The notes under the pieces are model-generated. The model was not told where the DNA came from. It saw only the letters and a list, made by a program, of their open reading frames with translations, and did no database searches. From NCBI RefSeq assembly GCF_017471675.1, contig NZ_JAFUSK010000031.1, forward strand, positions 1-64,000: a stretch of 64,000 nucleotides of DNA, read 5' to 3'. Position 1 is the stretch's first letter. The number at the start of each line of letters is the position of its first letter. The stretch is from Pseudobutyrivibrio sp. GTDB lineage: Bacteria; Bacillota; Clostridia; Lachnospirales; Lachnospiraceae. Below, piece after piece: positions 4,750 to 56,977 of the stretch. A program made the translations under genes and the position numbers.

Positions 4750-5766
4750 ATGGCTATATTAGTTACAGGTGGTGCTGGTTTTATCGGCAGCCATACATGT
4801 GTGGAGCTTCAGCAGGCAGGTTATGATGTAGTTGTATATGATAATCTTAGCAATGCTTCAGAGAAATCTTTAGAGAGAGTAGAAGCTATCACAGGAAAGC
4901 CAGTAAAGTTCTATAAAGGAGATATCCTTGATAGAGATAGATTAAATGAGGTATTTGAGAAGGAACAGCTTGATTCTTGTATCCATTTTGCTGGTCTTAA
5001 GGCAGTTGGTGAGTCAGTTGTTAAGCCTTGGGAATACTACGAGAATAATATTGCAGGTACACTTACACTTGTAGATGTTATGCGTAAGCACAACTGCAAG
5101 AATATCATTTTCTCTTCATCAGCTACAGTATATGGTGACCCAGCTGAGATACCTATTACAGAGAATTGCCCTAAGGGACAGTGCACAAACCCTTATGGTT
5201 GGACAAAGTCTATGCTTGAGCAGATACTTTCTGATATGCAAAAGGCTGACAATGAATGGAACGTAGTTTTACTTCGTTACTTCAACCCAATTGGTGCTCA
5301 TCCATCAGGAACAATGGGAGAGAATCCTAACGGTATTCCAAATAACCTTATGCCTTATATTACACAGGTTGCAGTTGGAAAGCTTCCTGAGCTTGGTGTA
5401 TTTGGTAACGATTATGATACTCAAGATGGTACAGGTGTACGTGATTATATCCACGTTGTAGATCTTGCTAAGGGACATGTAAAGGCTCTTAAGAAGATTG
5501 AGGAGAATGCAGGTCTTAAGATTTACAATCTTGGTACAGGTGTAGGTTATTCTGTACTTGATATTGTAAAGAACTTTGAGGAAGCTAACGGTATTAAGAT
5601 TCCATATTCTATCAAGCCACGTCGTGCTGGCGATATTGCTACATGCTATTCAGATGCTACAAAGGCTAAGGAAGAGCTTGGCTGGGAAGCTGAGTATGGC
5701 ATTAAGGAAATGTGCGCTGACTCATGGAGATGGCAGAAGAACAACCCAAATGGTTACGAAGACTAA
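4750..5766 (+). CDS. galE: UDP-glucose 4-epimerase
   Basis: Interconverts UDP-glucose and UDP-galactose with bound NAD+. An extended short-chain dehydrogenase fold: the NAD-binding [10 protein letters not shown] follows the start, the catalytic Ser lies in [10 protein letters not shown], and the YxxxK pair in [12 protein letters not shown]. Length 338 is typical. The start is the ATG at 4750, seven nt after AAGGAGG; an in-frame ATG at 4699 lacks a ribosome site and adds a non-family tail. Monocistronic between the rplT terminator and a repeat element. I could not fix a promoter in the AT-rich 140 nt upstream. Confidence 0.95.
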
Positions 5767-7389: not shown

Positions 7390-8586
7390 ATGAAGATTTT
7401 AGTTATTAACTGTGGTAGCTCATCTCTTAAGTATCAGGTTATTGATTCTGATAGTGAGCAGGTACTCTGCAAGGGCCTTTGCGAGAGAATTGGTATCGAT
7501 GGACGTATCGTATATCAGAAGGCTGGTCTCGACAAAGAAACTACAGAGATTCCAATGCCTACACACAAAGAGGCTGTTGCAGCTGTTATTAACGCTATTA
7601 CAAACGACAAGACAGGCGCAATTGCATCATTAGAGGAAATCGATGCAGTAGGACACAGAGTCGTACACGGTGGTGAGAAGTTTGCTGAGTCTGCACTTAT
7701 CACAGATGAGATGATTAAGGTTGTAGAAGAGTGCAATGATCTTGCTCCACTTCATAACCCAGCTAACATCATTGGTATTAATGCTTGCCGTGAGCTTATG
7801 CCTGGTAAGCCACAGGTTGGTGTATTTGATACAGCATTCCATCAGACAATGCCTAAGGAAGCTTATATGTATGCAGTTCCTTACAAGTACTATGAGAAGT
7901 ACGGTGTTCGTCGTTACGGTTTCCACGGAACAAGCCACAGCTATGTTTCTAAGAGAGTATGCGAGTTCGCTAATGCAGATATTAACAATTCAAAGATTAT
8001 CGTTTGCCACATTGGTAACGGAGCTAGCTGCTGTGCAGTACTTAACGGTAAGTCAGTAGATACTTCAATGGGTCTTTCTCCACTTGAGGGTCTTGTAATG
8101 GGTACACGTTCAGGTGATATTGATCCTTCTGCCGTTGAGTATATGGCTAAGAAGGAAGGCCTTGATTTTGCAGGTGTTATGAACGTCCTTAATAAGGAAT
8201 CAGGTGCACTTGGCGTTTCTGGTCTTTCATCTGATTTCCGTGACCTTCTTGCAGCTTCTGCTGAGGGTAATGAGAGAGCTAAGCTTGCTATGGATATGAT
8301 TGCATACCGTATTGCTAAGTATGTTGGTGCATACGCAGCTGCTATGAACGGTGTTGACATGATTTGCTTTACAGCAGGACTTGGAGAGAACAATGCAGGT
8401 CTTCGTCAGGCTGTATGCGATCACCTTGGATTTATGGGTGTTGAGCTTGATAGCACACGTAACGAAGGACCAAGCGAGGATAAGCTTATTTCTGCTGATT
8501 CTTCAAAGGTTAAGGTATTCGTTATCCCTACAAACGAAGAGGTAATGATTGCTAGAGATACAGCTGCAATCGTTTCTGGAAAATAA
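7390..8586 (+). CDS. ackA: Acetate kinase
   Basis: Makes ATP from acetyl phosphate and ADP, the last step of acetate fermentation. Signature blocks seen in order: NCGSSSLKYQ, GHRVVHGGE, RRYGFHGTSHSYVS, CHIGNGASCCAV, and the adenine-binding FTAGLGENN. Length 398 is normal. The usual partner pta is not adjacent in this window. Codon use is strongly biased (highly expressed gene). It has its own promoter; the next gene has another. Confidence 0.97.
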   Translation: MKILVINCGSSSLKYQVIDSDSEQVLCKGLCERIGIDGRIVYQKAGLDKETTEIPMPTHKEAVAAVINAITNDKTGAIASLEEIDAVGHRVVHGGEKFAESALITDEMIKVVEECNDLAPLHNPANIIGINACRELMPGKPQVGVFDTAFHQTMPKEAYMYAVPYKYYEKYGVRRYGFHGTSHSYVSKRVCEFANADINNSKIIVCHIGNGASCCAVLNGKSVDTSMGLSPLEGLVMGTRSGDIDPSAVEYMAKKEGLDFAGVMNVLNKESGALGVSGLSSDFRDLLAASAEGNERAKLAMDMIAYRIAKYVGAYAAAMNGVDMICFTAGLGENNAGLRQAVCDHLGFMGVELDSTRNEGPSEDKLISADSSKVKVFVIPTNEEVMIARDTAAIVSGK

Positions 8587-51259: not shown

Positions 51260-52900
<1,641 letters not shown>

Positions 52901-52925
52901 AATAGAGGATAAGGTGAATATATTA

Positions 52926-52966
52926 AATACTTTCACTGAATGTTCAGTGGAAGTATTTTTTTTTAG
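52926..52966 (+). terminator. Intrinsic terminator after groEL
   Basis: Stem AATACTTTCACTGA (52926-52939) / TCAGTGGAAGTATT (52944-52957), one U-G pair, ATGT loop, T8 tail. Confidence 0.94.
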
Positions 52967-53057
52967 AAATATTATTCATCTAAAACAATAAATTTAGTAA
53001 TTAAAAATTTGCGTTAAAAATTTTTATCAAATATATGAGAAATTAATTAAAAAAATA

Positions 53058-53086
53058 TTGCGCTTAGTGAGGGAAATGTGTAAAAT
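53058..53086 (+). promoter_or_regulatory. Promoter of the RiPP-like cassette
   Basis: TTGCGC (53058-53063), 17-nt spacer, TAAAAT (53081-53086), 26 nt before the precursor start. Preceded by about 90 nt of AT-rich DNA after the groEL terminator. Confidence 0.65.
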
Positions 53087-53111
53087 TACTCAACAAAGGA
53101 GGTGAAGTGAA

Positions 53112-53237
53112 ATGAAAAAGGAATACAAAAAACCAGAAATGCATTGCATTTTATCTTGGGGTCGTCATGGTTTAATTGTTTCACAACATGAATGTGAAAA
53201 TAGTGATGCCGTAAAGAACCAAGAGAAGGCAGCTTAG
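53112..53237 (+). CDS. Putative RiPP precursor peptide, 41 residues
   Basis: ATG at 53112, 8 nt after a perfect AGGAGGT; stop TAG at 53235. Leader-like N-terminus with YxxP (MKKEYKKPEM), the type of motif bound by PqqD-like recognition elements. The middle holds two cysteines (12 and 28), Trp16, and three histidines (11, 19, 26) with SWGRHG and HEC segments; the end is a charged tail without a GG cleavage site. A radical SAM/SPASM maturase and a PqqD-like protein follow. The leader/core boundary and the modification are not determined. Too short for ordinary gene finding. Confidence 0.75.
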   Translation: MKKEYKKPEMHCILSWGRHGLIVSQHECENSDAVKNQEKAA

Positions 53238-53255
53238 CTGTACTAATTTTTTACT

Positions 53256-53284
53256 TAGCGCGAATTTAATTCGCGCTATATTTG
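53256..53284 (+). terminator. Attenuator hairpin between precursor and maturase
   Basis: Perfect 9-bp stem TAGCGCGAA (53256-53264) / TTCGCGCTA (53270-53278), TTTAA loop, short T-tract TATTTG. Partial termination here would give more precursor mRNA than enzyme mRNA, a common RiPP arrangement. Confidence 0.7.
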
Positions 53285-53301
53285 TGCTGGAGGATATGTA
53301 T

Positions 53302-54420
53302 ATGAATGAATATATAAAAAAGCCCTATTATGTGGATTTATCAGTAACACCTTTTTGTAATTTAAAATGTCCTTTTTGTTCTGCTGGTGCGGCAGGAAGA
53401 ATGAATGATAGCAAAAAAGCGCCATTTACGCTTAGTAAACTTGAGGATATTTTTAATCAATTAGATGAGAATGATGTTATGCGAGTTAGTTTAGAAGGTG
53501 GAGAACCTTTTACTAGATCAGATATTATAGATGTATTAAATTTAGCAGATAAACACAATTTTTGGTATATGATTAATACAAACGCTACATTGATAACAGA
53601 GGAATTGGCAAAGAAGATTTCAAAAACTAATGTTGATAAGCTTTGTATTAGCATAGATGGACCAGAAAAAATACATGATTTATCTAGAGGAAGTGTGGGA
53701 AGTTTTAATAAAATGAAAGAAGCTGTGGGATATTTAAATAAATATAATGTTTCTATGGATGGCATCATAACTTTAACTAATATAAATATAGACTATTTAT
53801 TTGAGACACTAGAATTAATAAAAAATATGGGTATTAGTAATGTGGCAATAATGCTATTGGCATCTGTGGGGAAAGCATTTTGCAATAAGCATAGCGTGGA
53901 AGTTAATTACAATGACTGGAAAAAAGTTTATTTAAAGTTAACTGATTTAAAGAAAGAGGATAAATTACCTGTTAATGTTAATATTGTTCCAACAGGAGAA
54001 GCAACTCATCCATGGATGCTTTATTTACCATTACATGAAGAACACAGAGAAGATGATTTAAAATTGTTGTTAAGTCCAAGTGCTATTAGTACAATTAATA
54101 ATAATAGATTTGCATGTACTGCGGGAACAGACAATTTTGCTATTGATGGATATGGTAATGTATATGGATGTAGTCTTATGTATACTGAAAAAGACTTAAT
54201 AGCAGGTAATGTATATGAAAATTCGATTACAGATATATGGAATAATTCTTCGATATTTAAAAAATTAAGAGAAATAGAAATCGATGATGTAAAAGGGGAT
54301 TGTGCTGAATGCGAATTTCTTAGTGTTTGTCGTGGCGGTTGTCGAGTTTGTTCTTATGCAGTTAGTAAGGACTTATATTCCTCAGATGTTCGATGCCCAA
54401 AATGTGAAAGGAGCTTATAA
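53302..54420 (+). CDS. Radical SAM/SPASM peptide maturase
   Basis: 372 residues. Radical SAM cluster motif C19-NLK-C23-PF-C26, then SLEGGEPFTR (S-adenosylmethionine binding) and LCISIDGP. The C-terminal SPASM domain has the expected spacing: Cys272, Cys290, then Cys334-x2-Cys337-x5-Cys343-x3-Cys347 and later Cys350, Cys365, Cys368, for two auxiliary iron-sulfur clusters. Such enzymes form thioether, C-C or cyclophane links in peptides. Start at ATG 53302, eight nt after GGAGG. Its stop shares a base with the next start (TAATG). AT-rich with AAA lysines, unlike flanking genes. Confidence 0.92.
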   Translation: MNEYIKKPYYVDLSVTPFCNLKCPFCSAGAAGRMNDSKKAPFTLSKLEDIFNQLDENDVMRVSLEGGEPFTRSDIIDVLNLADKHNFWYMINTNATLITEELAKKISKTNVDKLCISIDGPEKIHDLSRGSVGSFNKMKEAVGYLNKYNVSMDGIITLTNINIDYLFETLELIKNMGISNVAIMLLASVGKAFCNKHSVEVNYNDWKKVYLKLTDLKKEDKLPVNVNIVPTGEATHPWMLYLPLHEEHREDDLKLLLSPSAISTINNNRFACTAGTDNFAIDGYGNVYGCSLMYTEKDLIAGNVYENSITDIWNNSSIFKKLREIEIDDVKGDCAECEFLSVCRGGCRVCSYAVSKDLYSSDVRCPKCERSL

Positions 54421-54725
54421 TGGTAAATAAATTAAATCTAGACGAATCATGTAAACCGGTATTTATTAGAAATGACGGTGATCAGTTTATTATATCATCA
54501 GGATTAGGGTTGAACTCCACAAGTGAGATTGGTGCTAGAATTATGTTGGGCATAAATAACGGTCTCAGCATATTAGAAATAAAGAATGAATTATTGGAGA
54601 CATATGATGTTGAAGAAAAGGATTTATGTTTGGACATGATTGATTTTCTAATATCCCTTAACGAATTACAAATTATTTCAGATAGCAAAGCGAAATTTTA
54701 TATTAATGAGTTGAGGTTGGTGTAA
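54420..54725 (+). CDS. PqqD-like RiPP recognition element protein
   Basis: 101 residues, acidic. Begins with beta strands (VFIRNDGDQFIISS), then GLNSTSEIGARIMLGINNGLSILEIKNELLETYDVEEKDLCLDMIDFLISLNELQII, matching the winged-helix layout of PqqD/RRE proteins that hold the leader peptide for the maturase. The order maturase-PqqD with overlapping codons on both sides (TAATG) strongly supports this. No catalytic residues. Identity by fold pattern only, not by search. Confidence 0.75.
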   Translation: MVNKLNLDESCKPVFIRNDGDQFIISSGLGLNSTSEIGARIMLGINNGLSILEIKNELLETYDVEEKDLCLDMIDFLISLNELQIISDSKAKFYINELRLV

Positions 54726-56035
54726 TGGATTTTGATTTAATAAAAAAAATTAATACAATAGCTATTCCTGGGATTCTTTCGACATTATTAAATACAATTT
54801 TTACCCTTGCTGATGAAGCAATAGTAGGACGATTGGATGTTGATGGATACACAGCAGTTTCTATTTCTGCAAATTTAATATATCAAATTATCGGAAACAT
54901 TGGTGTAATATCTATTGTATTTGCGATAATGTTTGCAAAGAGTATAGGCTCTAAAGATGAGAAAAAATGTAATGAAATATATAATTCATTAATTACTATA
55001 TCAAGTATAATAGGAGTTATTATTGTTTTAATGTCTTGCCTCATAGGAAAAACACTTTTAAGACAGATTTATGGAATTTCTGGCTCTATACTTAATGAAG
55101 CACATTTATATCTTTGTATTGCTTCTTTTACAGTTGGATTAAATCTTATTTGTTTTATTATGTCTTCTTTTTTTAAGAATATTTTTAAACCTCGCATTAC
55201 TCTTTTGGCAACTGGGCTATCTCTTCCTATAAATTTTTTTGTTGATTACATTTTAGTTTTCGGAAAATTTGGATTTCCTAAAATGCGTGTGGCTGGAGCT
55301 GCTATTGGAACGGTAGTTGGTGTTCTTGTTGAACTTTCAATTTTTATTATTTATTTTGTTAAAGAAAACAAAATTAAGTTTAAATTCTGTATTTCATTAG
55401 ATGTGTTTAGCAATGCTATAAAGATGTTTATTCCTTTACTAGGACAAGATATAATTGAAAACACACTGTTTATAATAATTGTTGGAGCAATTATTACAAG
55501 ATATAGTACGGCTTTATTTGCATCATATTCTGTGATTGTAGCTATAATTACGAGCATAAATATAATTATATATGCATACGCGGGCGCCACTATGACTATA
55601 GTGGGGCAATCTTTTTCGGATAAAGATAAAAGAAAAAAATGCCTTATTATACCTCTGTATACTTCTATATTGATATTAATAATATATTTACCACTATTGA
55701 TATGCTCGTTTTTATTTCCAAATCAAATTTGCGGATTGATAACTAATCAAAGTTTGATTATTAACACTGCTGTATCGATTTTATCTTTTGCTTTTATAAT
55801 GAATTTACTTAATATTCCGTGTCAGGTATATAAGTATGCATTGCAATCAATGGGAAAAGAAAGATACACTTTCGTTTCTACAGGAGTATCATCGGTTATT
55901 TCATGTTTATGCTTATATATATTTGTGGATTATTTTAAACTAGAATTATATGGCGTTTTTTGTGCTTATGGCATATTGTATGTAATACTTAATATATTAT
56001 TTATTAAAAAATATATTTATGCTCTTCGGCAATGA
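54725..56035 (+). CDS. MATE-family efflux transporter of the RiPP-like cassette
   Basis: 436 residues, about 12 membrane helices. Typical MATE features: opening NTIAIPGILSTLLNTIFTLADEAIVGRLD and symmetric second half with QDIIENTLFIIIVGAIIT. MATE proteins expel small cationic molecules by H+ or Na+ gradients. Here it is the only exporter in the cassette and is translationally coupled to the PqqD-like gene, so it may release the processed product. Unusual, as RiPP clusters more often use ABC exporters. Strongly AT-rich. Confidence 0.9.
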   Translation: MDFDLIKKINTIAIPGILSTLLNTIFTLADEAIVGRLDVDGYTAVSISANLIYQIIGNIGVISIVFAIMFAKSIGSKDEKKCNEIYNSLITISSIIGVIIVLMSCLIGKTLLRQIYGISGSILNEAHLYLCIASFTVGLNLICFIMSSFFKNIFKPRITLLATGLSLPINFFVDYILVFGKFGFPKMRVAGAAIGTVVGVLVELSIFIIYFVKENKIKFKFCISLDVFSNAIKMFIPLLGQDIIENTLFIIIVGAIITRYSTALFASYSVIVAIITSINIIIYAYAGATMTIVGQSFSDKDKRKKCLIIPLYTSILILIIYLPLLICSFLFPNQICGLITNQSLIINTAVSILSFAFIMNLLNIPCQVYKYALQSMGKERYTFVSTGVSSVISCLCLYIFVDYFKLELYGVFCAYGILYVILNILFIKKYIYALRQ

Positions 56036-56104
56036 TTGTATTTCTTTTAGTTATTAATTGTGTTAAAATATCACTTGCGTTTAAATTAGTAGTTGAGGTG
56101 AATT

Positions 56105-56977
56105 ATGAGCAAAGTAGCAATACTTACAGATAGTAACAGTGGCATTACACAGGCAGAAGCCAAGGAGCTTGGTGTTTATGTTATTCCAATGCCATTTTAT
56201 ATTAATGAACAGTTATATTATGAGGATATTGATTTAACACAGGAACAATTTTACGAGAAGCTGACACAGGGTGGAGAAATCACTACTTCAATGCCAATCA
56301 CAGGTAATCTTATAGATTTATGGGATAAGCTTTTAGAGGACTACGATCAGGTTGTATACATTCCTATGTCTTCAGGTCTTTCTTCATCTTGTGCTACAGC
56401 TAAGATGCTTGCTGAGGATTATGATGGTAGAGTTGTAGTTGTTGACAATCAGCGTATTTCTGTTACTCAGAAGCTTTCTGCACTTGAGGCTAAGAAGCTT
56501 GCTGATATGGGCAAATCAGCTCAGGAGATTTGCGACGCTTTAATGGAAATTAAGGCAGCTTCTACAATCTATATTACAGTAGATACTCTTGAATATCTTA
56601 AGAAGGGCGGACGTCTTACTCCTGCAGTTGCAGCTATTGGCTCTTTACTTAAGATTAAGCCAGTGCTTTCTATTTACGGAGAGAAGCTTGATAAGTTTGC
56701 AATGGCCCGCACTATGAAGCAGGCTAAATCTATTATGATAGATGCATTAAAGAAGGATATGAAAAATGTTCTTCATACAGATAACTTGGATGATGTGATT
56801 ATTTCTATTGCACACACTAATAATCTGGAGGCTGCTGAGAAGTTTAAAGAAGAGCTTTTAGCAGAGTTCCCAGGTAAAGAAATTTGGATTGATCCGTTAT
56901 CACTTTCAGTTTCATGTCATATTGGACCAGGCGCTTTAGCTTGTACAGTGACTAAGAAATTGATTGATATAAATTAA
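56105..56977 (+). CDS. DegV family fatty-acid-binding protein
   Basis: 290 residues. DegV features: ILTDSNSGITQAEAKELG at the start, TTSMPITGNLID, VYIPMSSGLSSS, and RLTPAVAAIGSLLKIKPVLS, which hold the fatty acid carboxylate. Family members (FakB) present fatty acids to a kinase. GC content and codons return to the normal of the window, marking the right end of the AT-rich cassette. No strong promoter found in the 69-nt gap; a TAAAAT-like -10 lies at about 56062. Confidence 0.92.
   Translation: MSKVAILTDSNSGITQAEAKELGVYVIPMPFYINEQLYYEDIDLTQEQFYEKLTQGGEITTSMPITGNLIDLWDKLLEDYDQVVYIPMSSGLSSSCATAKMLAEDYDGRVVVVDNQRISVTQKLSALEAKKLADMGKSAQEICDALMEIKAASTIYITVDTLEYLKKGGRLTPAVAAIGSLLKIKPVLSIYGEKLDKFAMARTMKQAKSIMIDALKKDMKNVLHTDNLDDVIISIAHTNNLEAAEKFKEELLAEFPGKEIWIDPLSLSVSCHIGPGALACTVTKKLIDIN

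Follow-up and report, generated by a model that had tools for sequence, protein, structure and literature searches.

The region between groEL and degV (52901..56104; 3,204 bp) in a 64,000-nucleotide window of Pseudobutyrivibrio sp. contig NZ_JAFUSK010000031.1 holds a four-gene cassette that resembles the tryglysin operon of streptococci. The block at 53112-56035, read on the forward strand, encodes a short precursor peptide, a radical S-adenosylmethionine (rSAM)/SPASM peptide maturase, a PqqD-like recognition element (RRE) protein for ribosomally synthesized and post-translationally modified peptides (RiPPs), and a MATE family exporter. This order is that of wgkA (peptide), wgkB (rSAM/SPASM), wgkC (PqqD/RRE), and wgkD (transporter). 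The precursor gene (wgkA-like, 41 aa; 53112..53237) is preceded by the ribosome-binding site AAGGAGGTG (53096..53104), whose GGAGG lies 9 nt upstream of its ATG. The maturase gene (WgkB-like, 372 aa; 53302..54420) most likely starts at the ATG at 53302, with a GGAGG 8 nt upstream; the mechanical start is a GTG at 53284. TAATG overlaps join the maturase gene to the gene for the PqqD-like protein (WgkC-like, 101 aa; 54420..54725) and the latter to the exporter gene (WgkD-like, 436 aa; 54725..56035). A first, sequence-only reading of the window had described these elements, and all were found where it had placed them, along with the ribosome site and both overlaps that it gave. The cassette contains no peptidase; between groEL and degV, no regulator gene was seen and no mobile gene was recognized by eye.

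Tryglysins are seven-residue antimicrobials that inhibit streptococci at 100 nM, with a mechanism given as unknown in the parts of the reports drawn on here (PMC13361665, PMC8092268). The wgkA-B-C-D operon of Streptococcus ferus and S. mutans encodes a 21-aa precursor, an rSAM enzyme, an RRE protein, and a “predicted transporter”, and no peptidase is named in the available portion of its description (PMC8092268). Tryglysin A is VNSWGKH and carries a -4 Da change, and tryglysin B is VNCWGKH (PMC8092268). Within the WGK motif, the C-alpha and C-delta of Lys are bonded to C5 and C6 of Trp, respectively (PMC8326336). As far as these excerpts describe it, the operon shares with the window cassette the peptide-rSAM-RRE-transporter order, a short precursor, a core of the form x-x-[S/C]-W-G-basic-His, and the lack of a peptidase gene.

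The window precursor, MKKEYKKPEMHCIL, contains the core S15-W16-G17-R18-H19 followed by 22 residues after H19, and thus has W-G-R at residues 16-18 where the family definition places W-G-K near the C-terminus. Its core ILSWGRH differs from the published VNSWGKH and VNCWGKH in that Arg replaces Lys at the cross-linked position. The tryglysin model NF050036 matches residues 1-19 of the peptide with its positions 1-19 (13.8 bits, E 0.064, cut-off 34). The window copy is the only such precursor in its own genome (E <= 5).

The maturase contains a CX3CX2C motif at residues 19-26 and the SPASM cysteine spacing that had been noted earlier: C272 and C290, then CX2CX5CX3C at 334-347, plus C350, C365, and C368. 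Pfam matches were Radical_SAM (1.4e-22), SPASM (2.6e-10), and MatE (1.3e-23), and PqqD scored 21.4 bits, slightly below its cut-off of 23.4. The best NCBIfam model of each of the four products is the matching tryglysin/Wgk model. Beyond the peptide, these are NF050035 (WgkB) for the maturase (308.7 bits, E 4.9e-92, cut-off 650), NF050069 (WgkC) for the PqqD-like protein directly after it (30.1 bits, E 3.7e-7, cut-off 110), and NF052396 for the MATE protein that follows directly in turn (254.1 bits, E 2.5e-75, cut-off 510). Aligned PqqD-like rows matched solved RRE/PqqD chains weakly (best E 0.0083), and the MATE protein matched NorM-type chains (E 7e-9). Comparison with the streptococcal Wgk proteins used NCBIfam models together with the heptapeptides given in the available part of PMC8092268.

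These models and the operon order support the earlier proposal of a RiPP-type cassette of peptide, rSAM/SPASM enzyme, RRE protein, and exporter. Two of its other statements are not supported. The precursor had been assigned to no known RiPP class, whereas the best models and the published gene order point to the tryglysin/WGK family. The MATE exporter had been called unusual; it is expected in this family, because wgkD is the predicted transporter of the published operon and the best match of the window protein is the model named at NCBI “tryglysin-associated MATE efflux transporter WgkD”. The MATE membership of WgkD is taken from this name and from a second cassette, in genome G1372.

Other assignments of the maturase were rejected. 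Its scores lie far under the cut-offs for PQQ and sulfatase maturation (PqqE 88.7 bits against 381.35; sulfatase_rSAM 79.2 against 349.45). The PapB model for ranthipeptide maturases gave 96.2 bits against 340. For anti-phage viperin, the best PADLOC pVip score of 64.5 bits is read as the common rSAM fold.

Relatives of the maturase were sought in overlapping genome draws of several ranks: genus (29 genomes; E 1e-30), family (299 genomes at E 1e-40 and 260 at E 1e-50), order (392; E 1e-25), class (391; E 1e-55), phylum (398; E 1e-60), the genus of G1372 (1; E 1e-55), and the family of G1372 (194; E 1e-50). Two further Wgk-like cassettes were found, one in G1372 (class draw) and one in G1458 (draw from the family of G1372). 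The cassette of G1372 (L065, same class) is near-canonical: MKYEQPIVETFVAWGKC lies directly before the maturase, and WgkC and WgkD follow in order. It resembles the window in its four genes, their order, the Y-x2-P-x7-WG motif, and a hairpin 3′ of the peptide gene. Unlike the window, its core is WGK, ending WGKC, and its WgkC (138.9 bits, cut-off 110) and WgkD (539, cut-off 510) pass their thresholds while its WgkB-like protein nearly does (621.8, cut-off 650). Identity between the two cassettes is 34% over 363 columns for rSAM, 33% over 432 columns for MATE, and 26% in the RRE alignment.

In the G1458 cassette (L072), the peptide MKRTKKYDKPIIKFIACWGKCHQVIA is followed by an rSAM gene that is split into two open reading frames (ORFs), then by a PqqD protein of 90 aa and a MATE ORF that is short; the cassette looks decayed. 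The two rSAM pieces share 57% and 46% identity with the window enzyme. Like the window, it has the peptide-rSAM-PqqD-MATE order and a Y-x2-P-x7-WG peptide with a tail, here a short one, but the basic residue is Lys rather than Arg. A 205-aa resolvase-like ORF, recognized by eye, stands immediately before this cassette (L072 rc 5087-5704).

Y-x2-P-x7-W-G-[K/R] is common to the window, G1372, and G1458 peptides, the leader comparison being among these three and not with the streptococcal precursors. A check of 6,417 small ORFs (15-60 aa; 472 kb examined, overlapping loci counted) found the pattern in these three distinct peptides only. It was chosen after the window and G1372 peptides had been seen, so the G1458 peptide is an independent match. 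NF050036 positions 3-18 match residues 5-20 of the G1458 peptide, and the model position aligned with Lys20 of that peptide is the one taken by Arg18 of the window peptide, by an ungapped alignment inferred from equal lengths.

In a maturase tree of 10 rows, which left out own_C35, G798, G869, the short G1453 fragment, and the G1458 N-terminal piece, the window enzyme groups with G1458 and with MT839433 (100/99). The MT839433 rSAM is 47.5% identical over 74% of the query, and its record stops inside the rSAM gene. The G1453 fragment, a truncated rSAM ORF of 177 aa, is 47% identical to the window enzyme. At order level, remote matches occurred in seven other genomes; a wgk-like context was absent from the five inspected (L058-L063), G877 and G911 not being inspected. 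Neither the G1443 locus nor a further one in G1453 is wgk-like. A genome-contig scan with two poor patterns returned 11 remote relatives only, and scans of viral contigs returned none.

It is hypothesized that the PqqD-like protein would bind the leader of the precursor and present it to the WgkB-like enzyme, which would cross-link Trp16 to Arg18 in W-G-R. By analogy, the best prediction is a Trp-Arg ring of tryglysin shape, most likely with two C-C bonds from Trp C5 and C6 to Arg C-alpha and C-delta and the loss of four hydrogens. Arg could in chemical terms form this ring too, because it has both carbons and the enzyme RrrB couples Arg C-delta to Tyr through one C-C bond in the ryptides, according to the part of PMC7670169 drawn on here. 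The product would be a tetrahydro-benzindole whose ring bears the guanidine directly, where Lys would leave an aminomethyl group. Cleaved in the manner of tryglysin A, ILSWGRH would have a calculated [M+H]+ of 864.4475 with four hydrogens lost or 866.4631 with two; the calculation gives 823.3846 for tryglysin A, published as 823.3868 (PMC8092268). Since the cassette lacks a peptidase, trimming would need host enzymes, and host proteases would remove the leader and the 22-residue tail. The small product would then leave the cell through the MATE protein and would probably inhibit bacterial competitors.

Ryptides (Arg-Tyr) and streptide (Lys-Trp) are likewise formed by rSAM C-C macrocyclization of a basic side chain with an aromatic ring, but as excerpted they have other motifs and bond patterns; their clusters were not searched for here. 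They provide the model for a variant in which a wgk-type cassette links W16 to R18 by a single bond (-2 Da) between Trp and either the C-delta or the C-beta of Arg. The single bond made by RrrB, the single Lys-Trp bond reported for streptide in the excerpt of PMC8326336, and the low identity of the window enzyme to the G1372 WgkB-like protein (34%) speak for it. This variant is nonetheless unlikely, as the G1458 relative, with its more similar pieces, adjoins a W-G-K precursor and Arg offers both of the carbons that WgkB uses.

Taken as a whole, the block is interpreted as a wgk-type (tryglysin-like) RiPP cassette with a predicted W16-R18 cross-link of tryglysin geometry, an exported product, and a probable horizontal origin, at a probability of about 0.72. 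Several observations weigh against this interpretation. None of the four products reaches its curated cut-off (34, 650, 110, and 510). Two rSAM proteins from other gene contexts likewise have NF050035 as their top model (177.6 and 199.1 bits), which makes a best hit weak evidence by itself, and the peptide match to NF050036 is weak on its own. The WGR variant was seen once, in the window, and it is followed by a 22-residue tail, whereas the known tryglysin precursors end at WGKH with no tail that long. The excerpt on RrrB states that Arg-to-Lys changes were not accepted (PMC7670169), so swapping K and R is no trivial change for enzymes of this kind. Only 12% of 200 bootstraps have a branch that sets the window, MT839433, G1458, and G1372 enzymes apart from the rest, which leaves the relation between the window and G1372 enzymes open. 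No WGK/WGR peptide was present among 89 and 210 ORFs of 12-90 aa on the MT839433 and G1453 stretches examined.

Since two close, truncated maturases lack such a peptide on these stretches, substrates may differ within the clade of the window enzyme. The earlier expectation of a conserved short ORF before homologous maturases held for G1372 and G1458, but no ORF with WGK or WGR accompanies the truncated MT839433 and G1453 genes. These two loci, together with the new long tail and its His and Cys residues, are the basis for an alternative in which the enzyme modifies other residues, such as thioethers at Cys12 or Cys28 or positions in the C-terminal tail, with WGR being part of the leader or present by chance. 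Such a substrate is very improbable: apart from the first two residues, the three precursors share Y-x2-P-x7-W-G-[K/R], and neither Cys12 nor Cys28 is matched in the G1372 and G1458 peptides.

The cassette appears to work like a tryglysin cassette but lies outside a strict definition of the family, which includes the WGK motif, the model cut-offs, and a link to Rgg. What is new here, judged from the sequence, is a core of S-W-G-R-H instead of S-W-G-K-H, with 22 residues after it. Arg in place of Lys in the staple points to a predicted kind of cross-link in an unexpected bacterial group. If the prediction is true, the product would carry a ring-borne guanidine in a ribosomal peptide, the tryglysin family would extend to Clostridia, and nature's own Arg analogue would reveal any dependence of the double cross-link on the amine of Lys.

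The cassette was probably acquired horizontally by this clostridial bacterium, whose family looks Lachnospiraceae-like from its many genera (298 sampled). degV is present in 27 of the 29 genomes of the genus, the window genome included. In 23 of the 26 other degV-bearing congeners, groEL lies directly upstream of degV without the cassette, so the cassette was probably gained at this site; the gap ranges from 82 to 858 bp, and this variation suggests that the site is tolerant. Of the remaining three, L038 has another gene upstream of degV, and L053 and L057 are cut by the contig edge. The empty site supports the acquisition first proposed from lysine codons. That codon argument stands only in part: the AAA fraction is 0.74, 0.67, and 0.80 in rSAM, PqqD, and MATE against 0.12 in groEL and 0.27 in degV, but 3 of the 51 other window ORFs also reach 0.67, and lysine codons alone therefore prove little. 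The rSAM, PqqD, and MATE genes have the three lowest GC contents (0.274, 0.307, and 0.307) among the 54 window ORFs of at least 100 aa. At third codon positions, the two lowest GC values again belong to rSAM and MATE, with PqqD (0.317) not among them. AT-richness is less marked in the precursor ORF (GC 0.358; AAA for three of six Lys codons).

A terminator-like hairpin with a 15-pair stem and a following T-run (52925..52958, forward strand) lies 3′ of groEL at the left border of the inserted block. A plasmid origin was rejected, with no plasmid match for rSAM (1e-30) or PqqD (1e-4). A phage origin was rejected as well: MATE had no phage match (1e-15), and the lone “phage” match is MT839433, a 4.3 kb unverified faecal contig.

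A further explanation is that the cassette is inactive, or that the Lys-to-Arg exchange is a degenerating mutation in a cassette being lost. The decay of the G1458 cassette, with its split rSAM gene and short MATE ORF, would fit such a course, as would the absence of the maturase from the other 28 of the 29 genus genomes searched (E <= 1e-30). Loss of function is rather improbable in the window: none of the four ORFs is disrupted, strong ribosome sites precede the peptide and rSAM genes, and translation of the last two genes is coupled.

A hairpin lies between the precursor and maturase genes (53256..53278, forward strand), with a fold z of -2.5, or -1.7 for a slightly longer stretch. An intergenic hairpin between peptide and maturase is present in all three loci (L065, z -6.6; L072, z -4.5), and that of the window probably acts as an attenuator or marks where the mRNA of the peptide gene ends. 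TTGCGC-N17-TAAAAT (53058..53086, forward strand) is a possible weak promoter seen by eye only; the promoter scan did not list it, its first hexamer has three of six matches, and promoter-like sites are not in excess (15 against a shuffle mean of 22.4). Rfam gave no match at E <= 0.1 in 52800-56300. Unlike the streptococcal RaS-RiPPs, the cassette lies outside streptococci in a genome with no Rgg match (TIGR01716, E <= 0.01; the Lactococcus lactis control was positive, and SHP peptides were not searched for). As tabulated in the part of PMC13289728 drawn on here, a RaS-RiPP mining rule requires both PF04055 and TIGR01716. Because the genome has no TIGR01716 match, this rule would not call the window cassette, which marks a blind spot in mining.

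The groEL-degV gap of L036 (G306; 640-1500) is 858 bp long and forms a large nested imperfect inverted repeat with five pairs of arms, each 26-38 nt long; it is a second element at the position taken by the cassette in the window. The idea that this gap is generally full of inverted repeats was rejected, as the large nested one occurs only in L036 among five gaps tested; L042 and L044 have one short hairpin each, and L035 and L050 have no inverted repeat of at least 20 nt.

MT839433.1 (L010) is filed as “Bacteriophage sp.” from human faeces. It carries the Wgk-like rSAM (NF050035, 189.6 bits), along with AgrB/AgrC/AgrA-like genes and an XRE-like regulator recognized by eye; nothing on it appears phage-like by eye. 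In G1453 (L073 5632-9514), the truncated Wgk-like rSAM of 177 aa (NF050035, 156.4 bits) is followed by two ABC half-transporter-like ORFs, identified by eye, in place of PqqD and MATE. A small Trp-rich ORF with a strong ribosome site, MTRKWIKPGFKKYSNRWLCWSKQSPGGGV, lies at L058 5975-6064 (G856) upstream of rSAM/PqqD/rSAM/MFS-like genes, and together with this two-rSAM cluster it may represent another RiPP. A similar cluster is present in L074 (G1453), with no such peptide seen upstream. In L059 (G1018), the peptide ORF MAFDLDNILEKYMETKEEKDLVTKQISEIDCSSNAMCWKKE (7676-7801) precedes an rSAM gene whose product scores 199.1 bits against NF050035, and downstream of it come, as judged by eye, a short PqqD-like ORF, another of 602 aa, and several of ABC type.

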